DNA from: Zygnema cylindricum
Lineage: Eukaryota > Streptophyta > Zygnematophyceae > Zygnematales > Zygnemataceae
DNA length: 64,000 nt
NCBI GenBank assembly: GCA_037447655.1
Contig: JBBHKE010001101.1
Location: forward strand, 87,306-151,305
Direction: 5' to 3'
The translations under genes were made by a program, and so were the position numbers. The notes beneath the pieces are model-generated. The model was not told where the DNA came from, searched no databases, and saw only the letters and a program-made list of their open reading frames with translations. Of this stretch, positions 2,790 to 55,400 are shown one piece after another; the stretch's first letter is position 1, and each line of letters begins with the position of its first letter.

Positions 2790-3604
2790 TGTTGATTTGA
2801 GGCAACCGGTGACCCAGAGGAGGAAGAAGAAGCACCAGCCGTTGCCATAATATTCAGATTACAAAAGAGGAAACTCTCACGGAAACCACAAAAAGACCGA
2901 CTTCACAATGAAGCCCCAAGCAAACCAGACACACACTAGGTCTGCAAATTTGCCACAATATAAACAGTATAACAAAGAATTCACATGCAGAATTTCACAG
3001 GGTTCTGCCAAAAGATCACAATGATCTTGCAATTCAAAAAGACACAAAAACTGCTTCGCAGTTTTCCATTCACTGAAATCCTAACTCCAAAATATTCTAA
3101 GTCCTACATATACAAAGTGAACCTACAGCTGATCTACACCGTACCACAACTACCGCGGTGTGTCGGTACACTAAACATTAATCAAACTAAACCCCGCCAT
3201 CTACCGTACAAGTATTTACATCAATCCTTAACCCTAGCCACTGCTAAAGTACGCAGTCAAAGTTAGTCTGCTGAAATGACGGCTCGGTCAATTTCTCTTC
3301 CAAAAATGACGGCGAACTCCGTCCGCCGTCCGCGTATTCATTCATCACCAAAGATGAACCTCCACGTGTAAATCTGGTCCCTCAAGTAAATATGTACTTT
3401 GTCAACCAACTCAACCAAGCTTGACTTCCCCACGGACCGACACGTGTACATAGAGTGTACCAAATCTGTGAACTCCCTTTGGAGTTACATACCACACCAC
3501 ATCTTGTCTACGTCAACTCATTTTGTACATAAAAACCGACTAAGTTTAGACTCTCTTTCTCACACACGAGATATAGAGAGGACTAAAGGTTTCCAAAACC
3601 AACA
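2790..3604 (-). repeat. Element B 3' LTR (815 bp), carrying a copy of the Gag start
   Basis: Matches 7777-8524 over its whole length apart from about 67 extra bases near 3320-3390. It starts TGTTGG and ends CAACA in element orientation. The last 59 bases contain ATG (minus, 2846-2848) and an open frame of 19 codons plus two bases, the same as in the 5' LTR. This shows that the Gag start codon is part of the LTR itself and not of the internal region. Confidence 0.9.
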
Positions 3605-4456: not shown

Positions 4457-6118
4457 TTAATAGATTATTCTCTTATCTCTATCCCTTTCTACCTGAATCC
4501 CGAGAATATACTTAGCCTCTCCTAAATCTTTCATCTCAAATCTCGAATTCAATGCTGCCTTTATTTTCTTAATCTCATTTAATGACTTACTCAATAGCAG
4601 CAAATCATCTACATACACAGCAATGTAAATAGTCCCATGTTCCCCTTCCATAACATAGACTGAGTGATCTGAACTAATCCTCACAAAATCGAGACCAGTT
4701 AGAAACTCATCTAATTTTAGATTCCACTGAAGTGGAGCTTGCTTCACATCGTACAAAGATTTCAACAGCTTACAGACCAAATTTTCTTTTCCGGTCTCTG
4801 CATACATTTCCGGTTGCCTCATATAAATCACTTCCTCTAAATCTCCATGCAAGAAAGCTGTCTTCACATCCATTTGATGGAGTTCCATATCCTCAATGGC
4901 TGCTAAAGACAAAAGAATTCTAATAGTTGGAAACCGGACAACCGGAGAGAAAGTCTCCTCATAGTCAATTCCCTCCTTCTGACTATACCTTTTTGCAACA
5001 AGGCGAGCCTTATATCTTTCAATAGAATTATCTGGATTTAGCTTAACTTTAAAAACCCACTTACAACCAATAGCCTTTCGATCCGGCGGAAACTCCACAA
5101 GTTCCCAAGTTTGAGCCTCCAGTATCGATCGCATTTCATCATTTGCCGCAGAGATCCATTGATCCTTTTCCGAGGCTGAAAATGCGTGTTGTATGGTGAC
5201 TGGCTCCATTGTGGTTGCAGAAAATAGGGCATGTTCCGCCGGTTCACCTCGCACGCTGCTGCTTTGCCTTCTTCCCCCCGGAAAATCTGAGGCTGGAACT
5301 GTTGGATCCCTAAGCTGCGGCCAAGGAGGAGGAGGAGGAGGAGGAGGAGGAGGAGGAGGATGAGGAGGAGGAGGAGGAGGAGGAGGAGGAGGAGGAGGAG
5401 GAGGAGGAGGAGGAGCTTGCTGTACAGGTTGAACAACTGGAATGACCGGAGTAGGAATAAAGAAAGAACTTGTGAAAGAGGAAAGAGGAACATTTTCAAA
5501 AATTACATATTCTTGATTTTTGGCATTTTTCTCAAAATCTGTCATGCCAAAAACATCGACCGATTGACTTTCTTCCTTAACCTGAATATTCCTAGCAACC
5601 TGAAGAGTTTTCCTGTCTGGGTTGTAAACTCTATAGCCTACTAACTCATCAGCATAACCCATAAAAATTCCCGGGACAGATTTTGGATGAAGCTTAGAAA
5701 TAGGAAGATTATCCAAAAAAAGACATTTACCACCAAAAACCCGAAAGTGACTTACATTGGGTTTCTTTCCTGTCCACATTTCATAAGGTGTCTTCCCTTT
5801 TAACGCCTTAGTTTCTATTCTATTCGTTATATAAGATGCACAAGAGAAAGCCTCACCCCAAAACTTGAAATCTATCCCTTTATCCAACATCATAGATTTT
5901 GCACTCTCCGTTAAAGTCCGGTTAAGTCTTTCGGATACTCCGTTTTGCTCCGGAGTATAGGGAACCGTGAACTGAAGAATATGCCGTGTTCCTTTAAATA
6001 ATCCGAGAATGCATTCGAAATATATTCTCCCCCGTTGTCGGACCGAAGAGAGAGAATCGGCTTTCGTGAAGCTTTTCCGCCCACGTTCGGAAATGTTTGA
6101 AGTGAGTGAACACTTCAC
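4457..6118 (-). pseudogene. Element B integrase C-terminus and reverse transcriptase
   Basis: A 553-residue open frame. After a few out-of-frame residues it enters the integrase end (VPYTPEQNGVSERLNRTL, then YITNRIETKALKGKTPYEMW), a linker with a long proline tract, and a full copia reverse transcriptase: WISAANDEMRSILEAQTWEL, CKWVFKVKLNPDNSIERYKA, AFLHGDLEEVIYMRQPE and the catalytic IAVYVDDLLLLS. It ends at a stop just after LGIQVERDRDK, where relatives continue. The integrase core preceding PYTPEQNG is frameshifted around 6020-6075. The YVDD box is intact, so most of the polymerase domain is undamaged. Confidence 0.88.
5325..5414 (-). repeat. (CCT)n trinucleotide tract coding for polyproline in element B
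   Basis: About 30 repeats of GGA on the plus strand (one TGA unit at about 5360) read as CCT proline codons in the polyprotein frame. They encode an almost uninterrupted proline run with one histidine between integrase and reverse transcriptase. Such a tract is prone to length change and, in a polyprotein, would act as a stiff linker. Confidence 0.9.
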
Positions 6119-6218: not shown

Positions 6219-7835
6219 TCACACGTCCGAATGAATAATTTGCAACAAATCCGTAGCCCGGTTATCCGCGGTTTGAGGTAGGGGCAGCTTGTGAAGCTTC
6301 CCTAAAGCACAACCATCACATACATGAGAATCTTTTTGTCCTAATATGACCCCATCTATCATTTTGTGTTTCACCATTTTATCAAGTTTTTTGTGATGAA
6401 CATGACCGAGCCTCTTATGCCACAAAACATTTTCCGGAATGACACTTGAGTATGCAAAGTCAATTTCACTAGCCAAGTCCATCCGGTACAACAAGTTTGG
6501 GCCTCTAGTTCCTACCAAAGCTACTCTCCCATCTTTGTTTACTACCTTCTTCCCATTCTTTTGCAAAATTTCAAATCCTTTCATTTCAGCCACAGAAGTG
6601 GAAAACAAATTTTTCTTAAACTTTGGAATATAGAGAACATCATGTAACGTTCTCTTTACAATCTGACCATTAATGTCACATGCTAACTCCACGCTTCCCT
6701 TTGCCGTAGCCTCCACACCGCTATCATCCGCGTAGTAGATTCGACGAGTCGGAATCGGAGTAAGGGTTTTGAAGTAAGCCCGGTTGCCGCACATGTGGGA
6801 AGAGCACCCGGAGTCCATAATCCATCCATTGTCTTGAGGCCCCTCCATGAGATCTTTTGCAAGTGCAAAGAACTCATCATCTTCTGATTGCGGAAATCTG
6901 ACCACATCATCTTTTTCCCCCAAAAATTCGTCTTGTGGCGTCTCATCAAATGCAAGGAACGCCGCATTTTTCACCGGCTGTTTTGGTGTTGACCCATTTG
7001 AAGGTGGTTCCTCCGATCGCACCTTCCATCCCGCACGGTATATTCCTGTTTCACACGCTTTTATAAATGCTGGGCACAGCCGGAAAACATGACCTTGACC
7101 GAAGCAATAGACACACCTATCATATTGCCTATAATTAGGATTAGGGGTAAAGTTCCTATTTCCGGAAAATCCAGCCTGCCTATATGTCTGAGCATTGTAC
7201 GCTACCGCTGATTTTCCACCATTCAATGCTATCTGAGTTGCCTCTTCCTCTAGAATGTAAGCTTCAGCTACGGTTATATTCCATCTAGCCTTCTCCAACC
7301 TTTTCATTTGTTCCGCGGCTCCTTTATATTCAGCAGGAAGCCCTCTCATTAAAATCATAGCTTGATGATAGGGAGGAAAATTCCCCCCGGAACATGCATT
7401 TTCCGACAGCAAAAGCTTCAAGCCATTACAATAGGAGTTCATATCACCCCCGGTATACTTATAATCCCAAATTTTCCCAGCAGTTATAACCTCATTCTGC
7501 TCACTAGCTAGGACATATGACTCCCGTAAGGCCTTCCATATATCAGATGCTTTAGAGATATTGATATATGTCATGTTCAGATCTTCGGACAGGAGTAGTT
7601 TGAGAACATGCAATGCATCCTCATTTTTCTTTTCAAAATCAGAATCCGTATCCGGAAGAACACCGGAAATCACATCATACAATCTCACTTGCTTAAGGTA
7701 AGACTTAGTCAAATCCGCCCAATATAAATATTTTTGGCCATTAAACACCGGGATCCGTGAGGGTGGGCCCGTAACCTGTTGATTTGAGGCAACCGGTGAC
7801 CCAGAGGAGGAAGAAGAAGCACCAGCCGTTGCCAT
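6219..7835 (-). pseudogene. Element B Gag, protease and pre-integrase frame (538 residues)
   Basis: Gag starts at the ATG at 7835, inside the LTR. Its first 19 codons and two bases of the next lie in the LTR; the next residues, QVTGPP, are encoded by the LTR edge and the primer-binding site. Then follow VFNGQKYLYWADLTKSYL and the retrotransposon Gag region, a CX2CX4HX4C zinc knuckle (CVYCFGQGHVFRLC, about residue 242), the aspartic protease motif WIMDSGCSSHMC (about residue 340) and the pre-integrase LWHKRLGHVHHKKLDKM (about residue 470). Gag packages the RNA and protease cuts the polyprotein. The frame ends at a stop just after LLQIIHSDV, where related elements continue into integrase; one base change would explain it. 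Confidence 0.88.
7764..7776 (-). promoter_or_regulatory. Primer-binding site of element B (half-tRNA-iMet type)
   Basis: Immediately after the CAACA end of the 5' LTR the minus strand reads GGTTACGGGCCCA. It is complementary, with one mismatch, to the anticodon-stem region of eukaryotic initiator tRNA-Met, which contains TGGGCCCATAACC. Drosophila copia has this kind of site and is primed by a cleaved tRNA half. Here the site is translated as part of Gag (V-T-G-P). Confidence 0.8.
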
Positions 7836-8524
7836 AATATTCAGATTACAAAAGAGGAAACTCTACGGAAACCACAAAAAGACTGACTTCACAATGAAGC
7901 CCCAATCAAACCAGACACACACTAGGTCTACAAATTTGCCACAATATAAATAGTATAACAAAGAATTCACACGCGGAATTTCAAAGGGTTGTGCCAAAAG
8001 ATCACAATGATCTTGCAATTCAAAAAGACACAAAAACTGCTTCGCGGTTTTCCATTCACTGAAATCCTAACTCCAAAATATTCTAAGTCCTACATATACA
8101 AAGTGAACCTACAGCTGATCTACACCGTACCACAACTACCGTGGTGTGTCGGTACACTAAATATTAATCAAACTAAACCCCGCCATCTACCGTACAAGTA
8201 TTTACATCAATCCTTAACCCTAGCCACTGCTAAAGTACGCAGTCAAAGTTAGTCTGCTGAAATGACGGCTCGGTCAATATTTCTCTTCCAAAAATGACGG
8301 CGAACTCCGTCCGCCGTTTTGTCAACGAACTCAACCAAGCTTGACTTCCCCACGGACGGACACGTGTACATAGAGTGTACCAAATCTGTGAACTCCCTTT
8401 GGAGTTACATACCACACCACATCTTTTCTACGTCAACTCATTTTGTACACAAAAACCGACTAAGTCTAGACTCTCTTTCTCACACACGAGATATAGAGAG
8501 GATTAAAGGTTTCCAAAACCAACA
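7777..8524 (-). repeat. Element B 5' LTR (748 bp)
   Basis: Starts TGTTGG at 8524 and ends CAACA at 7777 in element orientation. It lacks about 67 bp present in the 3' LTR at about 3320-3390 and otherwise matches closely. It contains the Gag ATG at 7835, so transcription start, leader and the first codons of Gag all come from the LTR. The solo LTR at 19963-21024 begins with nearly the same 35 bases. Confidence 0.9.
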
Positions 8525-8646: not shown

Positions 8647-9318
8647 TATTGAAAAGTAAGCTTTAGTAAGTCTTCGAAATTAGAGTCTAGGACTTCAAAT
8701 ATTTTTGGACCACCAACTATTAAATATAAGCTATATTTGTAGTGGATTTTTTAGTATCTACTCGAGTAGTTATCTTTGAGTAAATTAGTGTGCACGACCA
8801 CCTATGAATGTAGACGTGATAAATATCTCACGGATATTTAGGGTGTAGATATTGCTACTAGACAATTCTGGTCTAAGTATTTAGATTTTTGTCAGTAAAT
8901 TTTTAGGTGAACCTTCTACAAACGTTTTAGATGTTTTCTAGATCTTTTGAGTATTTAGTTCAATTAGACACAATCAGTTGATATAGAATTTTCATTCTAC
9001 ACAGAGTTAAGGAAATGAAAGCACTAAGTGCACTTTAAGTTGTGTTATGTTCTATTGTGCTCGATTTGGCGGTGGTATATGTTTGTCGTGTGAAAGACAT
9101 CTTTCATTTGGAGTTACATATCTTACACTATAGATCTAGTCTATTAGGCATTTCTCTTTGGGTTTGCTTCTGCTGTCATGTTTATTGGTGGCTCAATCCC
9201 TTCGGGCGCAAGTGCTTCTCCATGCACCTGCTGCTGGGACGAATATACCAGCTGGTGCGAGTGAGACGCCGAGTGCTAGTGGATCAAAATCAAGTCAAGG
9301 TGCCCATGACCTTCAACA
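8647..9318 (+). repeat. Element C 5' LTR (672 bp)
   Basis: Begins TATTGAAAAG and ends CTTCAACA, matching the 3' LTR at 13422-14218. The Gag ATG (9178-9180) lies 139 bases before the LTR end. This copy has one base more than the 3' LTR around 9225, so its Gag frame is shifted. Confidence 0.88.
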
Positions 9319-10019
9319 GGTTATGGGCCCACCGCCTAAATTGCCTTTTTTTGATGGAACGGACTACTTATACTAGGAAGATATGTTGAGCTCATATTTC
9401 GAGGAGAGGGACTTGTCACCCATTGTGGAAGGAATTGTTGATGTGACTGCACCAGATTGGAGAAAGAAGAATCTCCGCTGCCTCAACGTCTTGAAGCAGT
9501 TAATGACAAAAGAGTTGGTAATGTCGTATCTTGATATGAAGTAAGCCTCTAAAGTTTGGTTTAGTATACGTGCTATGTATGTTCAACTAGATGTTAATGT
9601 CCAGACTAACATAGCCACTCAAATTTTTGAATTTAAGTATTCTGGAGGTAGTATGTCACATCATTGTCATGCTATGAAAAGGTTGTTCCTTCAGAGTACG
9701 AGTGCAGGTTGGGATTTTTCACCACCTCAACAGGCTATGTTGTTGATGAGAACTCTGCCTGATGAATATAAGGGAGCCATGGATAGGCTTAGGGCTCTTC
9801 CACAACGTCATGGAATATAGCGTTAGGAATTCAGTTTATTTTAAGCGAAAAAGCTAACCAGATTTCACAAAGAGGTAGTAGTAAGTTTTTGCACGCACTA
9901 GCTAACCAGTTTTCAGACTTTAACAATGGAAGTGGCAGTGGCAAAGGTAGTGGCCCTAGAAGGTCACCTTTAACTTGCTATTACTGTGATGAGTAAGGGC
10001 ATGATTTCAGAATATGTAA
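9178..10019 (+). pseudogene. Element C Gag remnant
   Basis: Begins in the LTR, then reads HDLQQVMGPPPKLPFFDGTD across the LTR end and primer-binding site, the same layout as element B. Downstream pieces include SGGSMSHHCHAMKRLFLQST and QQAMLLMRTLPDEYKGAMDR, which align with the B Gag (YHQAMILMRGLPAEYKGAAE). A zinc-knuckle remnant lies at about 9979-10018, with a stop codon inside it. The frame is interrupted several times, including a stop at 9375. Confidence 0.8.
9319..9331 (+). promoter_or_regulatory. Primer-binding site of element C (half-tRNA-iMet type, perfect)
   Basis: The bases GGTTATGGGCCCA follow the CAACA LTR end with no spacer. They are the exact complement of TGGGCCCATAACC in the anticodon arm of initiator tRNA-Met and match the known copia site. 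They are read in frame as V-M-G-P of Gag. Confidence 0.85.
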
Positions 10020-13421: not shown

Positions 13422-14218
13422 TATTGAAAAGTAAGCTTTAATAAGTCTTATAAATTAAAGTCTAGGACTTAGAATGTTTTTGGACCACCAACTATTCAAT
13501 ATTAGCTATATTTGGTGTGGATTTTTTAGTATCTCCTCGAGTAATTATCTTTAAGTAAGCTTTAATAAGTCTTAGAAATTAAAGTCTAGGACTTAGAATG
13601 TTTTTGGACCACCAACTATTCAATATTAGCTATATTTGGTGTGGATTTTTTAGTATCTCCTCGAGTAATTATCTTTGAGTAAATTAGTGTGTACAGTCGC
13701 CTATGAATGTAGACGTGATAAATATCTCACGGATATTTAGGGTGTAGATATTGCTACTAGACAATTCTGGTCTAAGTACTTAAATTTTTGTTAGTAGATT
13801 TTTAGGTGAACCTTGTACATACGTTTTAAATGTTTTCTAGATCTTTTGAGTATTTAGTTCAATTAGGAACAATAAGTTTGATATAGAATGTACATTCTAC
13901 ACAGAGTTAAGGAAATGAGAGCACTAAGTGCACTTTAAGTTGTTTTATTTTTTATTGTCCTTGATTTGACTGTGGTATATGTTTGTCTTGTTAAAAGACC
14001 TCTTTCATTTGGAGTTACATATCTTACATTATAGATCTAGTCTACTAAGCATTTCTCTTTGGGTTTGCTTCTTCTATCATGTCTACTGGTGGCTTAGTCC
14101 TTGCGGGCGCAAGTGCTCCTCGCGCACCTGCTGTTGGGACGAATATACCAGCTGGTGCGAGTGAGACGCCGAGTGCTAGTGGATCACAATCAAGTTTGAG
14201 TGCCCATGACCTTCAACA
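13422..14218 (+). repeat. Element C 3' LTR (797 bp) with open Gag start and internal duplication
   Basis: Matches the 5' LTR but contains a direct duplication of 124 bp (13429-13552 and 13553-13676). Its last 140 bases hold an ATG (14079-14081) and 46 open codons plus two bases, reading MSTGGLVLAGASAPRAP and on to SAHDLQ. The reading phase at the CAACA end is the same as in element B and the solo LTR. Confidence 0.88.
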
Positions 14219-15469
14219 CAATCCCCATGCTCTATCTCTACAGTAGGGATCTTTCTCATTTTGGTCAAAACAATGGTTTTTCTCTACACATATGCATATA
14301 GGCTCCTGAATCAATTATCCATCATTCTTTCAGGAGCTTCTCTTACTCCACGGAAAGCACACTTTTGCCTCTTTGGAATCTCTAGCTCACCTTTCACCTT
14401 TGGCTCCTCGTTGAGGAGAAGTTTTCCATCATCCTTAATCAAAATCCTCTCCCATGAATTGTATTGTCACAAATGCCTTCTTCTTTCTTGCGGCTGATTT
14501 TTGGATCCGCCCCTCCTTCAATCTCAGCTCAGTCGGTTTAGTACACTCCGCCATTTATTTTCCTTGCTTCTTACAAAAGTGACAAATGCCCTTCCGAGGC
14601 CTTAATTCAAATCTGTCCCATTTGTTTCCTCTTCCTCCTCCAACAAAGTTTCCGTAAGGTTTCTTGCAATCCTTATCCCCGAGTTAGTTCCAGCAGCCAA
14701 TGCTTGAATCCTCTTCCTCCTCTCCGAATCACAATTGTGATTCCCCCAACCGAAATCATCCCCACAATGGATTACTAGATCCATCGATAATCAGGCAAAT
14801 CTTGAACCCTATTAACAATGTTTACATAATCATCTAGGAGTTTTATCAAAATAGTATTCACCTTTTTTTTCTCGATCTCCATTTTTTCAACACTCTCCAA
14901 CTCCATAAATAACGCGAGCAAGTCATTACAAAAGTCTAACATCTTTCCTCGTTTGTACACATATGCTTGTACCTTCTGACATGTTAGCTTCCGCTACTGA
15001 ATTGTACCACTCTTGTAAATGTTGACAAGAGACTTCGACAACTCGTAAGCCCTGTCCACATGAAGATGAGGTGTAGAAACAGGTTGAGTGAGACTCCGAG
15101 AATAAAATGAGTCGCCACGGTGATGTTGAAATCCCAGGTTTCAATATCATTTGCCTCGGTTTTTTGAACATCTACTACCGAAACTGATCCAGTAGCCATC
15201 AATGTCAGTTTTTTTTCCCCTTCTGCTTCTTTTTGTCCGACACGATGCTTTCCCTAATATCCTCTACAACCTCTGCCTCCACAGATCCTCCAGTGAATTG
15301 AGATCCTCCAAACCGTGGTGGAACTCCGAACTTTGCAGGTTGCTGACGCACACGACCACTAACGATGCCCAATAGGCGTTTTTCAAACAATGCACCCCTT
15401 ATCATGGTTTCCCAATACATAAACCCTGTTCCATAGAAAATGGGCATTCTAGAGGGTGGGCCGATAACC
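14219..15469 (-). pseudogene. Element A gag and protease region with primer-binding site
   Basis: The right target duplication of C (CAATC, 14219-14223) is followed by the rest of element A on the minus strand. Near 14226-14268 it reads MRKIPTVEIEHGD, the same block found after the protease of element D. Upstream parts are gag: KMLDFCNDLLALFMELESVE (about 14890-14945), NDIETWDFNITVATHFILGV (about 15080-15150) and PPSRMPIFYGTGFMYWETMI (about 15400-15460). The minus-strand bases at 15457-15469 read GGTTATCGGCCCA, a half-tRNA-iMet primer-binding site with one mismatch, again in the Gag frame (K-V-I-G-P-P). Stops and frameshifts are frequent. Confidence 0.8.
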
Positions 15470-17842: not shown

Positions 17843-18188
17843 TGGTCTTAATATTCCAGAGTTTACTTTCTTTAAAAACAAGTCTGAAGCACCTCGTTAC
17901 TTTAAAAAATATAAAGCATGGAGTGAGAAGTTGCATGGAACCCCTATTAAAGAATCTATGGACATAATAAGGGGGAATACACATCTCACCAGTTTGAGGT
18001 GTTTTTGAGAGATCATGGTCTTAATATTCCAGAGTTTACTTTTCTTAAAAACAAGTCTGAAGCACCTCTTTAATTTAAAAAATATAAATTATGGAGTGAG
18101 AAGTTGCATGGAACCCCTATTAAAAGAATCTAAAGACATAATAAAAGGGAATACACATCTCACCAGTTTGAGGTGTTTTTGAGAGATC
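17843..18188 (+). repeat. Tandem 173-bp duplication inside element D integrase
   Basis: The block 17843-18015, starting TGGTCTTAATATTCCAGAG, is repeated at 18016-18188 with a few differences (for example TCGTTAC against TCTTTAA). Relatives have one copy of this integrase stretch, so this is a local duplication after insertion. Confidence 0.88.
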
Positions 18189-18757
18189 ATGGAGTGCAAC
18201 ATCAAAAGAGTGTCCTTGATAACCCAGAGCAAAATTGTGTAGCTGAAATACTTAATTGATCTCTAGGTGATAGTGCCCAAAGCATGCTCACAGATAAAGA
18301 AATAGGAAAACGCTTTTGGGCCGAGCTATAAATTATGCAAATTATATCAAAAATATAGTTTTTACTTTGGCTATAAAAAGGGAAACACCTTATGAGAGAT
18401 GGGTTAGAAGGAAGCCGGATGTATCTCATCTAAAAGTATTTAGGAGTCAAGTGTACAGTCAAAATTCTAACCGAAAGGATTAGAAGCTAGAAGCCAAGGG
18501 AAAGCCAAGATATCTAGTGGGATATGATAAGGATGTTAACGAATATCAAGCTATGATCTCGAAGAAAAAATATTATGATGGTTAAGCATCTTGGTCTCAT
18601 AGATGAAGGAAAGTCAAAAGATCCCTTCAAATATTCTAAGACAATCAAAATTAGATTTGACTCAGAGAGTGAGTAAGAGTGAGAATTCTCTGAAAAAAAT
18701 GTCAATCATCAGACAATCGCAGCTTCAAAAGAAAAACAAGCCGAGGATAAGACACCT

Positions 18758-19962: not shown

Positions 19963-21024
19963 TGTTGGTTTTTGGAAACCTTTAGTCCTCTCTATATCAC
20001 ATTGCTATGCTGCCATGCTGCGCTGGTCACACCGCAGACATAGCAGCATGTATGAAAAAGATATTGTGCTGCCATGCTGCGCTGGTCACATCGCAGGCAT
20101 AGCAGCTTGCATACTAAGTACTAAGAGTATTGAACGTAAGGAATTGGACTTCAAATGACGCAAAGAAACATAGACGAAAGTGTTGAATGTGTTGGAGAAA
20201 TGGACGGCGGATCGCGAAGCCATCCGATGATTAACATTCGAAATGATTTAAATTGTACGTCGGCCGTACGAAACATAATGCGGCGGTCAACATGTGATGA
20301 ATTGGACGCCACCGGAGCTACGGACGGCAACGTTGTCAGTTTGGTGAGGGACGCGAAATCGCGTCCATCACATGATATTTATTTTGGACAGTCCTGATTT
20401 GTTTGACGGAATTCGTACGACGTGTAAATATTTAACAATGTTTTGTCCTGTGTTTTTAATTATTAGTGTAGATCTTAGGTACACTCACATTAATAGAGGT
20501 AGTTGATTGATTAATAACCGCTGGTATGCCTCCGTACAGTTAGTAGTAAGCTGTAGTGTATATTTGTAGGACTTAGTCATTTCTAGACTTAGGAACTTTT
20601 TGGACAGAAACTGTTTCTACTCCTTTTTGGGAATTTCATCTGAGAATTGCTCTCAAGTTTATTGGCAGAATTATCCGAAATATTGCATGTGTGTTCCTCC
20701 TTGTGTGGGAAATATTGTGGCGAATTTGCAGACCTATTGTGTGTCTGGTTTGCTTCGGGCTTCATTGTGAAGTTGGTCATATTTATCAAAGTTCTGGCAG
20801 GCTGTTTTTCTGCAACTTTGACTGAGTGTTGTGATTATTCGGTTTGGTATTATTGTATAAAATTTGGTGGGAATACTAAGTGGACTAGGAAATATCTGGT
20901 TGAGTAGTCTCAGCTTGGTTTGGTAATTCTGTATAATTCTGAGTGGAATCAAAGGAGGATGTTTTGGGGTAGTCTGTGGTGCTTCCGAGGGTACATTCAT
21001 GGCTGAAAAGGGCTATGAACAACA
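19963..21024 (+). mobile_element. Solo LTR (1062 bp) of a B-like copia family inserted in element D
   Basis: Begins TGTTGG and shares the first 35 or so bases of the B LTR (through CTTTAGTCCTCTCTATATC). It ends CAACA at 21020-21024. Flanks are AGCTC (19958-19962) and AGCTG (21025-21029), a 5-bp duplication with one change. On either side the D reverse transcriptase/RNase H reading (FMNFTKL, then SRSLDDPKKKDWEAAKSVMR) is simply split. Its last 26 bases are ATG plus seven codons and two bases (MAEKGYEQ), so this LTR also carries a Gag start in the same phase as B and C. It contains two similar 40-bp blocks around 19998-20107 (GCTGCCATGCTGCGCTGGTC). Confidence 0.85.
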
Positions 21025-22616: not shown

Positions 22617-23678
22617 TCAAGTAAGTTGCATATTTTGTGGACCAATAGAGGTCAAAGAATTACACCTTCTTGTTGCCTCCGCCGCTACCACCACCTCTCG
22701 GGCCACCTCTACCACCCCCTCTTCCATCGGCGTAATTAAGATTCGAGGTTTCAGAAGTAGTATAGTTAAGAACTCATACTCTTCCACTTGAACAAGCCGT
22801 TGGAGTTCCCTTCGACATTTTGATAAAATTGACGTTAAATCTGAAGGTGTTATCCTCCTTCGCTCGTAAAATAGCTTTAAGATACGAAAGCTTTTCCAGT
22901 AAGGCATTAAGAAAAACACTTAAGTTATCCGCATCCAAGATTACTCGGCCATTGTTGATTAATTGGTCGAGTATAATATTGAAGCGCTTCACTACATCGT
23001 CCATCAATTCATTTGACTTAATTTTAAAATTCATAAAGTCGGTATAAACATATTTACCATTGTACTCAACGCCTTTCTCATATTTCTCCGCAAGTGCTTG
23101 CTAACACCCACGGGGCCGTGTCGTGAGCGAGGAAGTGATCAAGCACGGAAAAAGTGCAATTTTTCATCAAACTGGTTGTTGCCGCAATATCTTTTATCCG
23201 CCATTGGGCACGCGCCTTGCTCTCGATTCTCATTTTCTCCTTTCCGTTGACAATCCTCTAAAGTTTCTTGAGAATTAGTTGGCCTGAATGAATTTTTTCC
23301 AAACGACATAATTGGTGCTATTAAAGGCCACGGATTTCCCGACACGGTCCAATTTTCTTCGTTTTCCAATCCTTCGCCAAAATCAGACTCTTCTTCTTCT
23401 ATCTTCGCCTTTTCCTTCCTAATCCTCTCTTTTCTCTCACTCTCATTAGCTCCTCCAATGAATGGATCGGTAGCCGAAAAGGAAGTGTTTTCTTTGTTCT
23501 CACTTGGTTGAGTTTGAAAATGGGAATCTACATATTCAATAAGTGTATCAATTATTTCCACGAATTTTCTTTCCGTATTTCATGTCTCCTCAAATTGAGA
23601 CCCCGAAAAACATAATTCTCTTGCTCTCTCCAAAGTCGACATGGGGGAAGGAGTATTTCGATTTTTCTTCCTCCCCAT
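22617..23678 (-). pseudogene. Copia element E Gag fragment (different family)
   Basis: A minus-strand gag starting at ATG 23678 (MGRKKNRNTPSPMSTLERAR). It has an early stop near 23580 and then continues in VEIIDTLIEYVDSHFQTQPS, an acidic-basic charged linker, and LMDDVVKRFNIILDQLINNG (a typical copia Gag helix, about 22950-23010). It ends in a glycine-arginine-rich region (22640-22740) where the RNA-binding part of Gag lies. Nothing of pol follows on the left, so the element is truncated. Its family differs from A-D because its primer-binding site is the conventional one. Confidence 0.7.
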
Positions 23679-26291: not shown

Positions 26292-29200
26292 ATGCGCACT
26301 GTGATTCCGTGTTCGTCAAGTGACGTTCAATATAACAACTCCCAAATGAATCAACTTGACATTTTCTTTTCCGGATTTCCATTTAGCCTCCATTGTGGAT
26401 TTATCAGTCGCAATTTGAGATTGTTTGTGTTATTTACTGTTCTCAGCCATGTGGCAGCTACTAGTTCAAGCAAAAATGCTGAAGGATTGGATATTGAGTT
26501 GGATTCCCATTCTCCTGTGAACCAAGTATTGACTTTGCTTGGAATTCAGCAACCCAGGCAAGTGTATACTGAAGGTCCTGCTGATGTCGAGGAAGGAGGA
26601 GGAGGAGAAGCACCATCACCACATCGATTCCTGCAAAGTCAAAGCTATCGGCCTTGGCTTCACGCGCATCGTCTACGGAAGGAGAGTAATTTATGCTGGT
26701 CAAGGTTGTGTGGCTTCTTTACTTTCATTTTTGAACTTCTAAGGCCATTCTAAAATTGCAAACTCTTAGCCAGATTATGTTTTATATTTTCTACTGCTTC
26801 GCTCAAAGGATTGAAGACGACTAATAGACACTGTGCGTTATTTTGAAGGCATTTTAGAAATTTTGGTGAGAATGCTTTTAGTCTTCCCACCACCAGACAT
26901 TTCAGGTCACTTGTAGCAACAGTCGCTGATCAGTACATTACCGTTGGGTATTATTGTTAACTATGTTCTGGCTTTCAAAGAGTTTTGTCTCGTTCCATAT
27001 TTGTTGTTACACTGCATCCTAAAGGAAGCTTTCTCAGCTTTTGAACCGTCATTGCCAATTGGAAATTGGGCAACTATTCAATGGTTTAGATGACTTTGAG
27101 ATTCATATAGGTAGTTTGTAGTTCTAGCGATCAACAACTGTTAGTAGTACTAGCGCTCGTGGCTTCCATTATTTCCCATGCACTGCCTTCTTCATGTCCG
27201 ACCCAGACAAACACTTTTACAGTCTGCTCATGTACCTGGACGTTAACACAATGTTGAGGAGTAGCAACAATGCTTAACATGTGTACTTATTGGAGGTATA
27301 TTAGTGTAGGTTACATTGAAATCTCTTAAAATTGAACCCACTATGATCATCTTTTCACCGAGCTATGTACACAAGGGGGTGTTTTTGCCAGTGTACCCTT
27401 GTGGTGTTTGACCCGCTGGTTCTTCAGTCTCCATACTGGTACCATAATACTTCTGGTCTCCTCTGTGCTGTTTCATTTGTTTTCTCCCTTATACATCAGC
27501 TCAACCATTTCATACAGAGCCGCACTTAAATGCCATGTAAGGCTGCTCCTAATCTTTTGTGCTTACCTGGAGGATTTTTTCCAGTGACTTCATGCTTTTT
27601 CCACTTTTTGCGAGCCTGGCTTGGTAACATATGAAAACCAGTAGGATCATCCCCTTTCGGTGGCAACTATATGAATATCCTTCAGTTGGCTCCCATCGCC
27701 ACAATCTGTACTTTGTTATAGTTCCCGTTTGAATGAATGTCGTGTAAGCAGTGAGGCCTTGACGATACATTGAAATAGCTTCTAATATAAAACTCAATGC
27801 ATACTTTAGAGTGCTTGTTACTCTTAACGTTCACTCAATCGCACACAATAAGTTCCCTTTTAGGTGCCTTATCCTATTTATTTGGCTTTGCCCGTTTTGT
27901 GTATATTGTACAAGTATGTCTTATGTTAAAAACTAGGAGATTCAGCAACGGCCTTTCTATCATTTTCCATCAACTTCTAGGTACTTCGAATTTAATTGTC
28001 TTTAGCTTGGCATAACCACATGTTAGTTCTTAACGTACTATCGACACAGAAGTTGTTGACGTTTAACTTTTATTTTTGTTCAATCTACTCTAAAAAGTAT
28101 ACGCAGTACTTTAATACTTTTTGCTCACATTTCATTGTTTATTCATGGGGAAACCCTTTTTTCTAAGAGCCACTAGTATCTTTTCATGTATTTGACGTCA
28201 ACGGCATAACATGTCTCTGAACTTAATTTTCTGGTTCCACGTGGGTTACAAACCTTTATGTTACCCACTTTTCCCCCCCTTTATTCTACCGGGCTCTAAC
28301 GGTTCAAGATGAATTGTTGATTGTGGCGTGTGTGAATCGACCAGATCTGAAAAACATTTTTATAAACCTTCTGTTTCCAACATTAAGCCTTCCTCAGCGC
28401 TTGTTGATAACATAGCTGGTATGCAACCTCAACTCCCTGTATATCAAGCAAAAATTGAGATACTTCACATCTATCTAAAACTTTTCTAGACATTTTTTGA
28501 TTTTGGACTACAGTTTGATTTACATTGATGGCTAATGAAACCATGTATTTTTATGATCTGTCAAGACCTTTAAACCAACCAGCACTGCCATCATTGTGTG
28601 TGGAAATCTATGCAGCATCATAACTGCAAAGAAAAACTCTTACGTTCAAATGGTTGCCTCCAAACGAAAATAGCTATTGTGCATGGAAATAAACAATTTG
28701 AACTAAATAATGATTAGTGCAGTTCGTTGGCAAGTGTAGGTGAGCCCTTATAATCGAAGCAACTTTACTAATTTTGTCTGCATACTTGGATGGATGAAGA
28801 CTTGAACACGTTAGTGAAAGCTTCGGGTTTTTATTTCCTTTGGTGTTGACAATTACAGAGATTAGCAATTGCAGTCTGAACCGGACCAATAATGTACCAA
28901 TAATCAGAACCTTTGAATTTTACAAATGGGATATTTGAAGAGTCCTTAAATGTACATCACGGGTGACCTTCCTTGTCCTTGTGATATAATTTTTTCAACA
29001 TGATTGTACCCCGAAAATACTTAGTTTGCTTGATGGTTGCAATGTGAAAATGTCTCTTTGCTTTTGGGCTTTATCAGCATATTTGGAGCGGTACAAAAAA
29101 TGCTGGCATGGCCCAACAGATTGGCCTTATGTTGTTGGTGATTTTCGAGGAAGAGAAATCGGCAATTTTTCCCGACTAAAGGGATGCACATATGCTATGG

Positions 29201-32200
29201 TGGATCTCAGTGATGGCCTTGGAAACAGGCTTCTTGGTTTTGCATCAATTTTTATTTGGGCTTTGCTGACGGATCGTGTCCTTCTCGTGTCGGATACTTT
29301 GTTGGAGGTAGATGCTCAATCTTCTCTTATCCACACTAAATTGCGCACTAAATTGTCTTCTGTATTTTAGTGTTTATGGACGGCTATTTGTTCTGTGGTT
29401 GTAATTGGATAAAGTTTGAGTTCCTTTCCCTGTCATTTCTTTTTCTGTAAATTCTTTGTATGTCTTCCATTTGAAGTTACAACTTTTGAGAATTTGTCAA
29501 TTTGCATACCGAAGCTTGCCTTCAATAATCTCATTCGTCTGATGATTTCAGCAAATGCAAGGGATATTAGCAAGTTGTTGCTGGAATGAATATTCAGGTC
29601 ATGAGATTTACTAACGTTTTTTTTGAAAGCTTCGGAAGTGTTGTCCTTAACAAACGTTGTTATCGTTTGTCCCTTTTTCCTTAAGGTTCTTTTGGCTATT
29701 CAATTTTGCTGTATCGCAATGCTACTCCGGATTTCTCGAACTGCACCTCTAGTTTTAGAGGGTAGAATGCTGTTTCTGTTTCTGTCTGTGGTGATTCATG
29801 GTTCAAAAATGGCATTCACTTTCTTTTGTATCCATGCAATATGTTTATTTTACAAAAAACGTTTTCTGGCCTGCCAGCTCTTTGTAGCTGGTCCTTGCTT
29901 CAGTATTTCACGAGGATGCTTATTTATTAATAGATAAATGTTCTATACAAGTGTCATTGTTTCTGAACGTATGGAAAACAATATTTTGTCAAGTATTCAT
30001 TTTTTTATTGATGTATTAAAACAATGTTTTCCTGGCCTGATTCTTGAACCGCAGTGAATTGCAGGGCACACTCTGTGACTTTCCTGCTCCAGAAACTTCT
30101 TGGTGGGCTCCAGCATGGCAACATTGGCCAAATAAAGTCCCCTATGCTCAGCTCCTCAGGTTTGAGTGCTTTTTTCCTCAGTTTTCTTCATTTTTTTCAA
30201 AGGCCATCACGTGCACACCAAGTTTTTGCGTTGTTTTATTGATGAACAACTTTTTCAGATATAGTTTCCCTGTTAATTGGTTGGAACAACTTACTAAATT
30301 GTGTCAGTCATAATTTTCCTCTGAGGCTTTTGAAATATATCATAGCAACTGAGTCGGTGTGTTTTGTTCGAGAATGCAAGCTTCTTGAATGTCCGCTGTT
30401 AACGAAAGAACACTGAGGGCTTAATGTTCCGTTGTTAAGGTGTACATTTGTGGCATATGGTATTCTGCTTGCTTGCTCACGATGTCATTAGGAAACACCA
30501 AATGATGTATGGTTTTGCCAGAGATATGCTAACCGTCTGCTTTACTTTCACAAGAGGTTGTTCGTTCCCTTAATTGCAGAGCCGCCTTCAGTTTTGTTTG
30601 GCTAGTGTGTGTGTATGTATCTATGTCTACATGTGTACATATGCCTGTGTATATATGTCTATGTATGTGTGCGTATGTGTGTGTGTTTTGTGTGTGTGTG
30701 TGTGTGTGTAGTTTATGTGTATGTTTGAGGATATTGTGTGTATATGTGTATATGTTTACATGTGTATTTTTATACATGTGTGTTTGTGTGCGTGTGTGGG
30801 TGTGTATGTATAGACATGTGCATACATGTACATGTGTTTGTGTACAAAATTGTTTATTTGTGTATATTTATGACTATCAGCTTGTCTTATGTTTCCTGTT
30901 GTACTGAGTGGTACCACATGGACGCTCGTCTTGTTTGGCCATCCTCAGTCTCCAGAATGTGACCGGGTTGAAGGTCACAAAAAATGAAGGGCCCACACAT
31001 GTGGCTTGGATAGAGGTCAGCCATCGTCACGAGTATTCTGACGGGCCATCCTTCTTTTGTGAAGAGGCTCAATTGGCTCTTCAACAGTACGTGAAAACAG
31101 TTACGATGCAAAGCAACCAATTTTTTGCAACTGGTCTTTGGTTGTTACCCTCCATGGCTGACAAGCTTCTTCAACTCTTCCCTGACAGGTAAGAAAGTTT
31201 CTATACAAGTTTATCAGGAGTTGTCTTATCCATTGATGAAAGCAGTGGTGTTAAACCATGCTTTATTCTTTTGTACATCATTGGTTCTAATTCAGCCGTT
31301 TTAATGTCGAGACTGTTTATTGTAATTAGTGGGCACGCAATAATGGATGTGCAAATTACATGGTAAATCATGTACGGAAAAGTAGGTTTGGTTGATGCTT
31401 ATTTATGTGTAGGATCTGAAGCCGGCAACTGTCAGTGTGGTTCATACTTATTACAGCTGAGAATGTAGAAGCAAAAGTAAAAAGTATTGAGTTGCATTGT
31501 ATCGATTGTCAAAAAATGTCGCGATTTAATATGTTGCATGTTCTCGCCTTAAATTGCATATCGCTATTTGTTATCACAGATAATTCACATTCGGTATGTG
31601 CGATATATGATATAAAAGCATATGTATAGTACAGCCGGACAGGTACTGTACTGCGTCGCCTCTCGACTTGTAAACAAATCTGCGACTTACCACCAATTAT
31701 TCCATCACCAATAATTGACAACGGTCAGTTCATTGGCTGCAAATGTAAAAAATTAATTAAAAATGAATCAGTTAAAAAAATGAGAAATCTAAACATAATA
31801 AGTGGCAAACTTCCTTGTCTTTTTTTTGGGCTGCTGTTTATTTACAACAAAAACAAGCAAACAATACAAACAACCCATTAACAAGAGTATTTTTCAGAAC
31901 TATCAATATATGTATAGTTTTCCATCAATTGGTTATACGTTGCCATCAGTCCTTCAAGGACTGGATGTGTTTTATGGGTATGTACATTCTGATGGCCAGG
32001 TGAGTTCAGGAGTGGGGATTTCAGCCTATTAAATGGAATGAAAATTCAAGGGGACCATCAATGTTACGCTTGACAAAGCTTTGATTTTTTTTTTTTTAAG
32101 TTGGTAAGCGAGGAGGGAGCAAATGTGACTAGATGTGCTTCTTCAGACAATTCTCTTTCTGAGACTTAAGCTTGCTTCTAAGTACAAAGGGTACTCGTTA

Positions 32201-47569: not shown

Positions 47570-47642
47570 GGCCGGGTAGCTCAGTTGGTAGAGCTAGTGT
47601 ACGGCTAACACAAGGTCCTGGGTTCAATCCCCGGCTTGGCCA
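47570..47642 (+). tRNA. tRNA-like 73-mer (probable tRNA pseudogene or SINE head)
   Basis: Folds as a full cloverleaf of standard length. The acceptor stem is GGCCGGG with CTTGGCC (two G-U pairs), the D stem GCTC with GAGC and the T stem CTGGG with CCCGG; T8, A14, G18-G19 and TTC are present. Both internal promoter boxes are there (TAGCTCAGTTGG and GGTTCAATCCC). The anticodon loop ACGGCTA is abnormal: position 33 is C in place of T, position 37 is T, and the 27-43 pair is A-A. The formal anticodon would be GGC (Ala), but the rest does not look like plant tRNA-Ala. It is more likely a tRNA-derived repeat or pseudogene than a working tRNA. Confidence 0.6.
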
Positions 47643-52467: not shown

Positions 52468-55400
52468 CTACCGATAATACGACATTTGTCTACTTGACGT
52501 AAAAGGCGAAACATCGAGTGGACGGACAACATTTTGTTTGGATGGTTTTTTAATCGTTAATTTCCGTTTCTCTCTCTCCTCCCTCTCTTTTCTAAGCCAT
52601 GGTTCGACTACCCCGATAAGATTCTTTGCTCCATTTGGACCACCAAGTTCGGGCAGATCCGAAAGTTTTTCTGACCGCTTCAATCTCCCATTGTCCACAT
52701 ATGCGACATGTGTCGCCCATGATTCCAAACCGTCAAAAATATGAGTGGCATAAATAATTGTTGCACCTCTCTGTCAAAAACAATGTAAAACATATGAACT
52801 TTGTTACTTTTCAGTTTCCGTTGACTTATCTCTGTTTCACTTTACGGGTTTCAATGTTCAGATTAACAAAACTGTCCGTCAAAAATGAAAGTTTAAATAG
52901 ACCTTTGTTCATCTTGTTTTTTTCAAGTTCCAATTCGCTATTATTTGAAAAAAACCAGCACATTGGACCAGTTTTTTACTTTCAAATTTCCAATTATTTT
53001 GTATTATTCCTGTTTCAGATTCATTTTTTAGTCCTAGGAGCTCTCTAAAAAACCAAAGTTTCCAAATGGCAAATTAAACCTTTTCAGTTCTCAGTTTTCA
53101 GTCTTCCGGTTTCAGTTCACTGATGATCACCATAGACAATGATAAATTTGATGATTTGAAATTCCGGTTTTCCATTCTTGTCGCCGCTTATTTCTCAATT
53201 AAAATAAAACATATCCCCACTAATTTTGACCTCTGCTTTACCAAATACTCTTTCTAAACCAATTCTTTTACTACCCAAAGTCAGATAAAAACGTAAAATG
53301 ATGGGAAAAACAGCAAAAAAGAAAATAAGAAAAAAACATGCACCTGTTCACATTCTTCTTGGAAGAATCCGAGAAGATCCATTCGGGCAACCACATCCAG
53401 ATCCACAGTAATTTCGTCCAATAATAAGACCTGAAAACACCCACAGTATTTGAAAAAATGTGAAACCAACATTCGAACTAAAGACAATGGAAAAGAAACA
53501 ACTTTTTTGATCAAAGAAAAATGATTTCTTTCCCTCTTTGAGCCTCTTTCCCTAGAAAACCAGAGGCAGAATGATGCGATGCTCTGAGATTCGAGTTCCC
53601 TCGGTTTTCGGTTTTCAGATTTCAGTTCCGTTTACCTTAAACGGCCGCAACAGTCCCATGCATATTTGCACTCGTCTCCGTTGTCCGTCAGAAACTTTAT
53701 GCATTCTCCACCTTAAATCAATATCCAAAAGTTCAATTAAGGCCCTTCTGCGTTCTGGATCCACATCGGCAACTGTTCCCACGTACAAAGCCACAAAAAA
53801 AGGGAAAAAGAATGTCATTTTTAACTCATTTTTAGTCATTTGCTCGTCAATTGAAAAGTCCCTTTCTAGCAAAAAGTAATGATGGGACACATGGAAACAC
53901 CGTTTTTGCTTGAGAGGTTACATGCACAGATGCTGTAAACGGAAAACAGAAAACAGAAAAAAAAACGGACACGAAATGGTGAGAACTTCATACCTCCAAA
54001 AATCATATGCTCTGCGGAAAAATCACCTTGAAGAGGAACATCACCCTGTCATGACACACGAATTCAATTCACAGAAAGTCAAGTCAAAGAAAGTCAAATC
54101 AATTAGAAAACTCTCACTGAAAGGAGCCCAGAAATATTCAAACAGAGAAAAACCAGTACAAGTTGGATTAAGTCAAATAAATTAAGTCAAATAATTTGAT
54201 CAACCAAGCAAAGTGAATAAAGAGTTGAGCTAAATGAAGTAGAGTGACGTGGCATGAATTCAATACGAGGCAAATTGAATAAAGCTAGATGACTACAGTT
54301 GACTCAAATCCAGGATAAATTCTACTACGACAACAGTCCAGTCAAGTCAAGTCAAGTAAATACAAATTAAATGTAATCCAATCCCGACCTAACCCAATTT
54401 AACCCAGCCTAGCCTAGTCTACCCTTAACCGAACAGAACCCAAACCAAAGCAAACAGAATCAATCCTAACAGAGCCGAATCAAAACCAAACCAAATTAAA
54501 CCGAACCGAACCAAACCGGACCGAAGTGAACCGAACCAAGACCGGAAGCCGAACCATACCAATCCATCCTAAGTTAAGTAAACTAACCGCGCTGCCCATG
54601 GTGCGGCTCCATGTTCCTCCTAAATAACAGAGAGTCCCGTCACATGTGAGTTTGGTGTCGTGAAAAGCGGAACGGCCCAACACACGCACAACGTCACGCC
54701 CACCGGCCAAATGCTTGCCAGCCACTACCTTCAGGAGAGTGCTCTTGCCTGGGAGAGAGGCAGGAGGGAAGAGGGGAGAGGGAGAGAGGGACAGAGGGAG
54801 AGGGATAGGGAGGGGGAGAGGGAGAGGGAGGGAGAGAGGGAGAGGGGGAGAGGGAGATAATAATCAGCATTAAAGCTCTTTTAACTTTGTACCTGCCACA
54901 CTGTAAAAGTTGAAAATGTTCAAGTCTTTGTTGGTATAGTCTCGCTTTTCTGTCAATGTCAAAAATATCATATGTACTGCATAAAAAAACACGATCAATA
55001 TTGGAAATCAAATTAGATAAACGATCCCAAAAAAGAAGGTAACCTCCTTGATAGACTCTTGTATAAGTTCCATACATTCTCTTATGCCCAACAGCAAATC
55101 ATCATAAATAAGTGATTTTGGGTCTAGCTGTCATGTGCCTTACAACTGTGAGAGAAAGAAAGAGGATTAAAGAAAAAATAACATAATTAAGACCATCTAC
55201 ATAACTGCTTCCATTACTTATCACCATAATTAACTCGAATTCCGGTGGTATTAATCGACACAAATTCGTGACAAACCATTTGAGACATGAAATAGTATAC
55301 AGGGAATTTAAAACTTGTGTAGATTTCATGAATTTGGCACAAATTTTCCCGCAGGTAAAAAATTGGTTTGGACTGAACCACATTTCCGTTTTGCATTATT

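Follow-up and report, generated by a model that had tools for sequence, protein, structure and literature searches.

Does the Gag protein of a plant copia element begin inside the long terminal repeat (LTR), and is the primer-binding site (PBS) translated as part of it? This question is raised by a 64,000-nucleotide stretch of Zygnema cylindricum DNA (assembly GCA_037447655.1, contig JBBHKE010001101.1, positions 87,306 to 151,305), termed the window, which carries elements called A, B and C and a solo LTR. An earlier reading made from the letters alone (the sequence-only reading) had proposed both features for copia elements of the window. Our analysis suggests that copia-type elements with a PBS matched to the 5' half of a host tRNA-Met probably start their Gag frame at an LTR AUG located 20 to 152 nt from the LTR edge. 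The codon phase in which the frame meets the edge is constant, CAA CA/G GTT ATG GGC CCA (the slash marks the edge), and the PBS is read as Gln-Val-Met-Gly-Pro.

Element B carries an open frame from LTR to Gag

The relevant features of element B, all on the reverse strand, are as follows.

6219 to 7835, minus strand: open reading frame (ORF) of 538 amino acids, Gag and the start of Pol, beginning in the 5' LTR (ORF and Pfam)
7777 to 8524, minus strand: 5' LTR of 748 nt, TGTTG...CAACA, with target-site duplication AGATT
2790 to 3604, minus strand: 3' LTR, with the equivalent ATG at 2848 (LTR alignment)
7777 to 7835, minus strand: LTR-coded start of Gag, 19 codons and 2 nt, MATAGASSSSSGSPVASNQ, then CA/G; fraction of A, S, G, T and P residues 0.79
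7762 to 7776, minus strand: PBS GGTTACGGGCCCACC, read Val-Thr-Gly-Pro-(Pro), complementary at 14 of 15 positions to a host tRNA-Met gene

Element B is a Ty1/copia LTR retrotransposon, as judged by its Gag, RVT_2 domain, LTRs, PBS and polypurine tract. Its two LTRs agree at 729 of 746 aligned bases and AGATT flanks both sides; TG/CA-type LTR ends, the 5-bp duplication, the PBS and a purine-rich GAGGAG before the 3' LTR are all present. Pfam places Retrotran_gag_2 at residues 61-200 of the ORF, and gag_pre-integrs and Pol_BBD domains are found in it as well. The reverse transcriptase is encoded by another ORF further downstream, in which a domain search identified RVT_2 and SH3_retrovirus. A long GGA/GAG run that codes for poly-proline is located ahead of the reverse transcriptase domain (5320-5415).

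The Gag ATG at 7835 is 59 nt from the LTR edge at 7777, and the ATG at 2848 in the 3' LTR stands at an equal distance from its own edge. From the LTR ATG, the frame passes the edge as CA/G and continues across the PBS. The second Met of the ORF is codon 88, which falls within the Retrotran_gag_2 domain, and no AUG is present between the LTR ATG and that domain. Going upstream from the Gag ATG, the next ATG in any frame is 220 nt away.

Among proteins of solved structure, the relatives of B Gag at E < 0.1 are copia virus-like particle (VLP) proteins (E = 4.2e-5, with the alignment starting at B residue 28); extending the threshold to E = 1 adds one unrelated weak match. An AlphaFold model of B Gag residues 1-230 had a pLDDT of 33.8 and was not used.

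Element C, the solo LTR and element A

Three further loci in the window carry the CAACA edge, the PBS or both.

8647 to 9318, plus strand: 5' LTR of element C, in which a 1-nt indel puts ATG 9178 out of frame (LTR comparison)
9319 to 9333, plus strand: PBS of C, GGTTATGGGCCCACC, with an in-frame AUG within, complementary at 15 of 15 positions to a host tRNA-Met gene
9317 to 9811, plus strand: decayed Gag fragment of C with two stops, in the same frame as the PBS (frame reading)
13422 to 14218, plus strand: 3' LTR of C; flanks CTATC and CAATC, a 4/5 match (LTR comparison)
14079 to 14218, plus strand: Gag start in the 3' LTR of C, 46 codons and 2 nt, open up to the edge (ATG at 14079, edge at 14218, 140 nt)
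19963 to 21024, plus strand: solo LTR of 1062 nt, flanks AGCTC and AGCTG (sequence reading)
20999 to 21024, plus strand: coded start of the solo LTR, MAEKGYEQ, then CA/ (26 nt; the type seen most often among the sampled genome places)
15455 to 15469, minus strand: PBS-like block of element A, GGTTATCGGCCCACC, Val-Ile-Gly-Pro-Pro, complementary at 14 of 15 positions to a host tRNA-Met gene

The LTRs of C are 91% identical and have the same edge as B, while the start of C reads TATTG. Its 3' LTR opens with a direct duplication of 124 nt (13422-13682) that is absent from the 5' LTR. The element hosting the solo LTR also contains a direct duplication, with a spacing of 173-174 nt (17843-18192).

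The sequence-only reading had described CAACA-ending LTRs with a Gag ATG at 59 nt (both LTRs of B), 140 nt (3' LTR of C) and 26 nt (solo LTR) from the edge, and these coordinates are confirmed. All three distances leave a remainder of 2 modulo 3, as it had noted, and the split codon at the edge of B is CA/G. Its statement that the frame runs through the PBS in B and C holds for the B ORF. In C, the 3' LTR is open from its ATG to its edge, but the 5' LTR, the one that adjoins the PBS, is frameshifted by the 1-nt indel. Element A was said to share the coded block. The block is indeed present (15457-15469, with one mismatch), but TTAAA stands in place of the CAACA edge and no in-frame ATG occurs before a stop. 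For lack of both, element A is ruled out as support for an LTR start.

The motif formed by the edge and the PBS, CAACAGGTTAYGGGCCCA, occurs twice in the window with up to three mismatches, versus 0.07 occurrences expected, and at 906 exact sites in the genome, versus 3 for the reversed pattern. These counts rule out a chance origin of the motif. An in-frame ATG, taken alone, is weak evidence, because it also arises when the ends of the three LTRs are shuffled, at frequencies of 0.31, 0.25 and 0.30. The weight of the case therefore lies with the Gag homology, the absence from B of any other AUG before the Gag domain, and the genome sample.

The primer-binding site matches the anticodon region of tRNA-Met

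A tRNA pattern search of the genome returned six places, each inside a tRNA-Met gene predicted by ARAGORN (anticodon CAT); two of the retrieved stretches, L105 and L106, overlap each other and contain one and the same gene pair. We take these genes to encode the initiator form. The PBS is complementary to nucleotides 25-39 of the gene, completely in C and with a single mismatch in B and in A. Both mismatches affect the codon that is read as Met in C, which is ACG in B and ATC in A. Across 100 genome places, which were selected on a contiguous match of 13 nt or nearly so, the contiguous match to the tRNA is 13-17 nt.

By position and complementarity, the putative PBS is of the half-tRNA (Hemivirus) type: it adjoins the LTR, and its complement lies in the internal anticodon region of tRNA-Met. 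Because it is complementary to the initiator CAU anticodon, such a PBS must contain an AUG. A genome copy with a B-type LTR (L040) has ATG where B has ACG, and the ACG may thus be a late change in B.

The arrangement recurs in several LTR families

The exact CAACA/PBS pattern was used as a query against 352,776,454 bases in 2689 contigs, with the reversed pattern as the control. Our sample comprises the first 100 listed of the 906 sites (30 plus 70 loci), none of which was dropped; an exact PBS was required, and it has the ATG form at all 100 places. Only the sequence that follows the PBS was used to group the places. In the main Gag-coding cluster, 60 of 67 places have an LTR ATG that is in the Gag frame and open to the edge; such an ATG is present at none of the 24 places of a non-coding family and at 6 of the remaining 9, which form 8 small clusters.

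Six LTR families carry an in-frame ATG, at distances of 20, 20, 26, 59, 107 and 92-152 nt from the edge. The 26-nt type has it at 46 of 48 genome places of its LTR cluster, in addition to the solo LTR of the window, and the C-type LTR at 14 of 16 (92, 134, 143 and 152 nt). The other families are the B type (L040), L034 (107 nt), L064 (20 nt) and L102/L103 (20 nt). One single-member LTR cluster, L093, also has an ATG at 26 nt, and within the sample L090 and the single-member clusters L006, L016, L036, L076 and L085 have no LTR ATG. ORFs started in the LTR at seven loci all match Retrotran_gag_2, six above the Pfam cut-off and one (L102) below it. In the L034 element, LTR similarity stops exactly at the CAACA edge and CCACA flanks both ends; its two coded parts measure 107 and 65 nt, a difference of 42.

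The sequence-only reading had assigned the arrangement to several lineages and had stated that it would fail if most copies lacked an open frame. The arrangement is present in six LTR families, and in the sample the frame is open at 60 of 67 places of the main Gag-coding cluster, so that this objection does not apply there. The sequence arrangement, the complementarity to host tRNA genes, the recurrence, the mostly frame-preserving indels considered below and the Gag homology are established, as are, for B, C and a third family, paired LTRs whose ends coincide with the edge.

The non-coding family (24 of the 100 sampled places, among them L004 and L020-L024) has a half-tRNA PBS and reads QVMGPHPIYHML- in the Gag phase. 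With neither Gag nor an in-frame LTR ATG, it is likely a non-autonomous element. Near-regular CAACA/PBS sites occur on contig C262 (4187, 6442, 8697 and 10951; spacing 2254-2255 bases) and on contig C23 (324624, 328105, 331612 and 335294; spacing 3481-3682 bases), and are probably head-to-tail tandem arrays of LTR elements. Relatives were not found in the viral_contigs, genome_contigs or plasmids collections. The exact pattern did match three stretches in genome_contigs (two bacterial records), but the sequence and ORFs read there look bacterial and unlike a retrotransposon, and the matches were taken as chance.

Evidence for and against a coding LTR end

If LTR ends are translated, their indels should be expected to respect the frame. 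We compared 17 C-type LTRs, with L016 (truncated), L101 (not C-type) and L083 (a duplicate) omitted. The ATG is kept in 16 of the 17, and the length from ATG to edge is 2 modulo 3 in 15. In pairwise comparisons, 162 of 204 indels in the coded part are multiples of three, versus 0 of 112 in the LTR just upstream; the upstream figure becomes 51 of 296 if end gaps of the alignment are included. With L016 and L101 still included, the counts are 248 of 369 and 0 of 187. The richness in A, S, G, T and P residues is frame-specific, being reached in 1 of 5000 dinucleotide shuffles for B and in 0 of 515 open shuffles for C, although this statistic was picked after the peptides had been seen.

Might LTRs simply happen to hold ATGs and open frames that run into Gag? 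In 25-31% of shuffles of the LTR ends, an in-frame ATG comes ahead of any stop, and among the 100 places an ATG precedes any stop in the Gag phase at 66, in phase 0 at none, and in phase 1 at 84. Phase 1 is rich in ATGs because common LTR ends hold others at 10, 16 or 19 nt from the edge. However, chance would have to place ATGs in the Gag phase in six LTR families at differing distances, to favor multiple-of-three indels in the coded part only, to produce the frame-specific composition (subject to its post hoc choice), and to leave B with no other AUG before its Gag domain. We consider this explanation very improbable.

Several observations nonetheless weigh against a coding LTR end. The wrong phase 1 exceeds the Gag phase in its number of ATGs, so that the count by itself does not discriminate, and many of the 100 sampled copies are closely related. 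Pairwise indel counts repeat shared events; the coded part shows about nine distinct gap runs, of which five are multiples of three in alignment columns. One C-type copy, L015, is in phase by length yet holds an in-frame stop, and by our own reading a Gag-like family (L052) has GTG at the expected ATG. The LTR-coded peptide gives pN/pS values of 0.67 (C type) and 1.31 (26-nt type, 8 codons), in both cases from in-frame copies only, and the coded part of the LTR is no less variable than the LTR upstream (0.177 versus 0.163). In the 26-nt type, the commonest, T is at position -3 of the LTR ATG in 45 of 46 copies.

Over the first 40 codons past the edge, pN/pS is 0.33 (12 C-type copies, with the selected PBS included). 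The LTR-coded peptides of B and the 3' LTR of C do not align significantly (1607 of 5000 shuffles reach the score), and those of B and the 5' LTR of C align weakly (190 of 5000). The B pair is identical over its last 88 nt, which is unremarkable with only 17 substitutions in 746, and in the last 95 nt of the C pair 4 of 31 codons differ, all by non-synonymous changes. A selection test within the LTR pairs, which the sequence-only reading had suggested, was rejected as uninformative. Weak constraint on residues would fit a floppy N-terminal tail, in mostly dead copies, for which the frame matters more than the residues.

The proposal that the PBS is under both protein and tRNA constraint is only partly supported. 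At fourfold sites, B and C are identical at 3 of 3 positions inside the PBS versus 6 of 21 outside, and C-type indels are mostly in frame, but the pN/pS values of the LTR peptide do not favor protein constraint.

Where translation may begin

Besides the LTR AUG, two other starts can be considered. Plant copia elements usually start Gag downstream of the PBS, and this arrangement, the usual one in the superfamily, could apply here as well. However, the next Met in B is inside the Gag domain. Furthermore, in 42 genome ORFs of at least 100 codons, the distance from the PBS Met to the following Met is 20-29 codons in 36, at least 60 codons in 3 and 8-9 codons in 2, and for L064 no such Met is listed. 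In the 36, that Met falls beyond a conserved F-D-G-x-x-Y motif; most of the 42 have no AUG ahead of the conserved Gag motif other than those in the LTR and the PBS. Initiation beyond the PBS is hardly credible for these elements.

The second candidate is the AUG inside the PBS, whose presence would follow from complementarity of the PBS to the CAU anticodon; the LTR ATG would then be an extension that can be dispensed with, or a weak additional start. All 100 places, having been chosen for their PBS, contain this AUG, which shares the Gag frame in Gag-coding families and has G at both -3 and +4. The position of the following Met beyond F-D-G-x-x-Y in 36 of 42 ORFs, the weakly constrained LTR peptide, the T at -3 of the LTR ATG in the 26-nt type, and the copia capsid alignment that begins only at B residue 28 are all compatible with it. 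The codon is ACG in B and ATC in A, which argues against a PBS start, but the B codon may be a late change. Because L040 keeps the ATG, we give a PBS start more weight, and an LTR start less, than B alone would suggest. Conversely, neither the frame that is open from LTR ATG to edge at 60 of 67 main-group places nor the mostly in-phase C-type indels would be required by a PBS start. On balance, we regard this alternative as unlikely.

Initiation at the LTR AUG is the reading we prefer, and from sequence we infer the transcription start, the use of this AUG and the actual priming. Genomic RNA would begin in the LTR, upstream of the Gag AUG; the nearest earlier ATG is 138 nt upstream in L040 and often 85-176 nt upstream in other families, with a few shorter distances. 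Ribosomes would use the LTR AUG as their start, so that the PBS and Gag would have no untranslated leader between them. The LTR end would supply Gag residues 1 to 6-50, and the PBS the following few. Because a half-tRNA PBS must contain an AUG, that AUG would be held in the Gag frame, where it creates no competing out-of-frame start and might also serve as a second start.

A more speculative extension is that fusion of the Gag frame to the PBS AUG yields two in-frame starts and two forms of Gag, and that the Val-Met-Gly-Pro codons are re-copied from the host tRNA. We hold this to be doubtful. If it is true, reverse transcription would periodically rewrite a piece of a capsid protein from a host tRNA gene.

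The layout suggests a way for an AUG-bearing PBS to coexist with Gag translation. A solo LTR would keep the start codon and the first Gag codons (8 in the window copy), and possibly act as a movable start codon plus promoter. In such elements, the Gag N-terminus would be lost from any annotation in which LTRs count as non-coding.

Other features of the window

Four other features of the window were recorded.

22774 to 23100, minus strand: Retrotran_gag_2 fragment of another element (26.8 bits, versus a Pfam cut-off of 27)
28990 to 29367: match to xyloglucan fucosyltransferase, which by the distribution of this enzyme would suggest a land plant
47570 to 47642, plus strand: tRNA-Ala, anticodon GGC (ARAGORN; also an Rfam tRNA match of 46.6 bits), either a gene or a tRNA-derived repeat
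54694 to 56239, minus strand: one reading frame present twice, 1141 nt apart, beside T/C-rich low-complexity repeats; this is a local duplication

Comparison with known systems

The sequence-only reading had called the combination unusual in a plant. We recognized no description of a Gag start within a plant copia LTR in the available portions of the open-licence literature searched, but the claim was overstated, because half-tRNA PBSs in plants and the Ty1 LTR start are both known. Half-tRNA-Met PBSs are described in the plant copia lineages Osser, Bryco and part of Gymco-II (Neumann et al. 2019, PMC6317226), which, as far as the available text goes, have the PBS type in common with the elements studied here. 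The main text of that article, in the portion available, contains no occurrence of "start codon" or "within the LTR". Likewise, the available portions of PMC7466625 (on Physcomitrium elements), PMC7773854 and PMC2359750 add nothing on the Gag start.

The Gag of element B is homologous to that of Drosophila copia, whose VLP protein is the match noted above; the LTR- and PBS-coded extension of B, which precedes residue 28, has no counterpart in that match. Drosophila copia belongs to the genus Hemivirus and is primed from an internal part of its tRNA. The genus uses a short tRNA segment (PMC8515867).

The closest parallel in layout is with yeast Ty1, as B and 60 of 67 main-group places appear to share with it a Gag AUG in the LTR and a PBS in the Gag frame. 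That Ty1 GAG starts inside the LTR is the accepted view and agrees with the coordinates of Ty1 RNA. According to the available text of two reports, this RNA begins in the 5' LTR with a 53-nt 5' UTR, its PBS (RNA nt 95-104) falls within the coding part of GAG, and experiments have made use of silent changes in the PBS that preserve the Gag residues (PMC5454406, PMC4974528). In contrast, Ty1 primes with the 3' end of tRNA-iMet, whereas the PBS of the Zygnema elements matches the anticodon arm. Unlike Ty1, the elements described here reside in a plant host and carry an in-frame AUG within the PBS itself. As far as the consulted portions of this literature go, the half-tRNA-Met PBS of plants and the LTR start and translated PBS of Ty1 were already known, and the combination is a variant of these: a compact, Ty1-like layout, with a coding LTR end and a translated PBS, that appears in plant half-tRNA elements of several LTR families within one genome.
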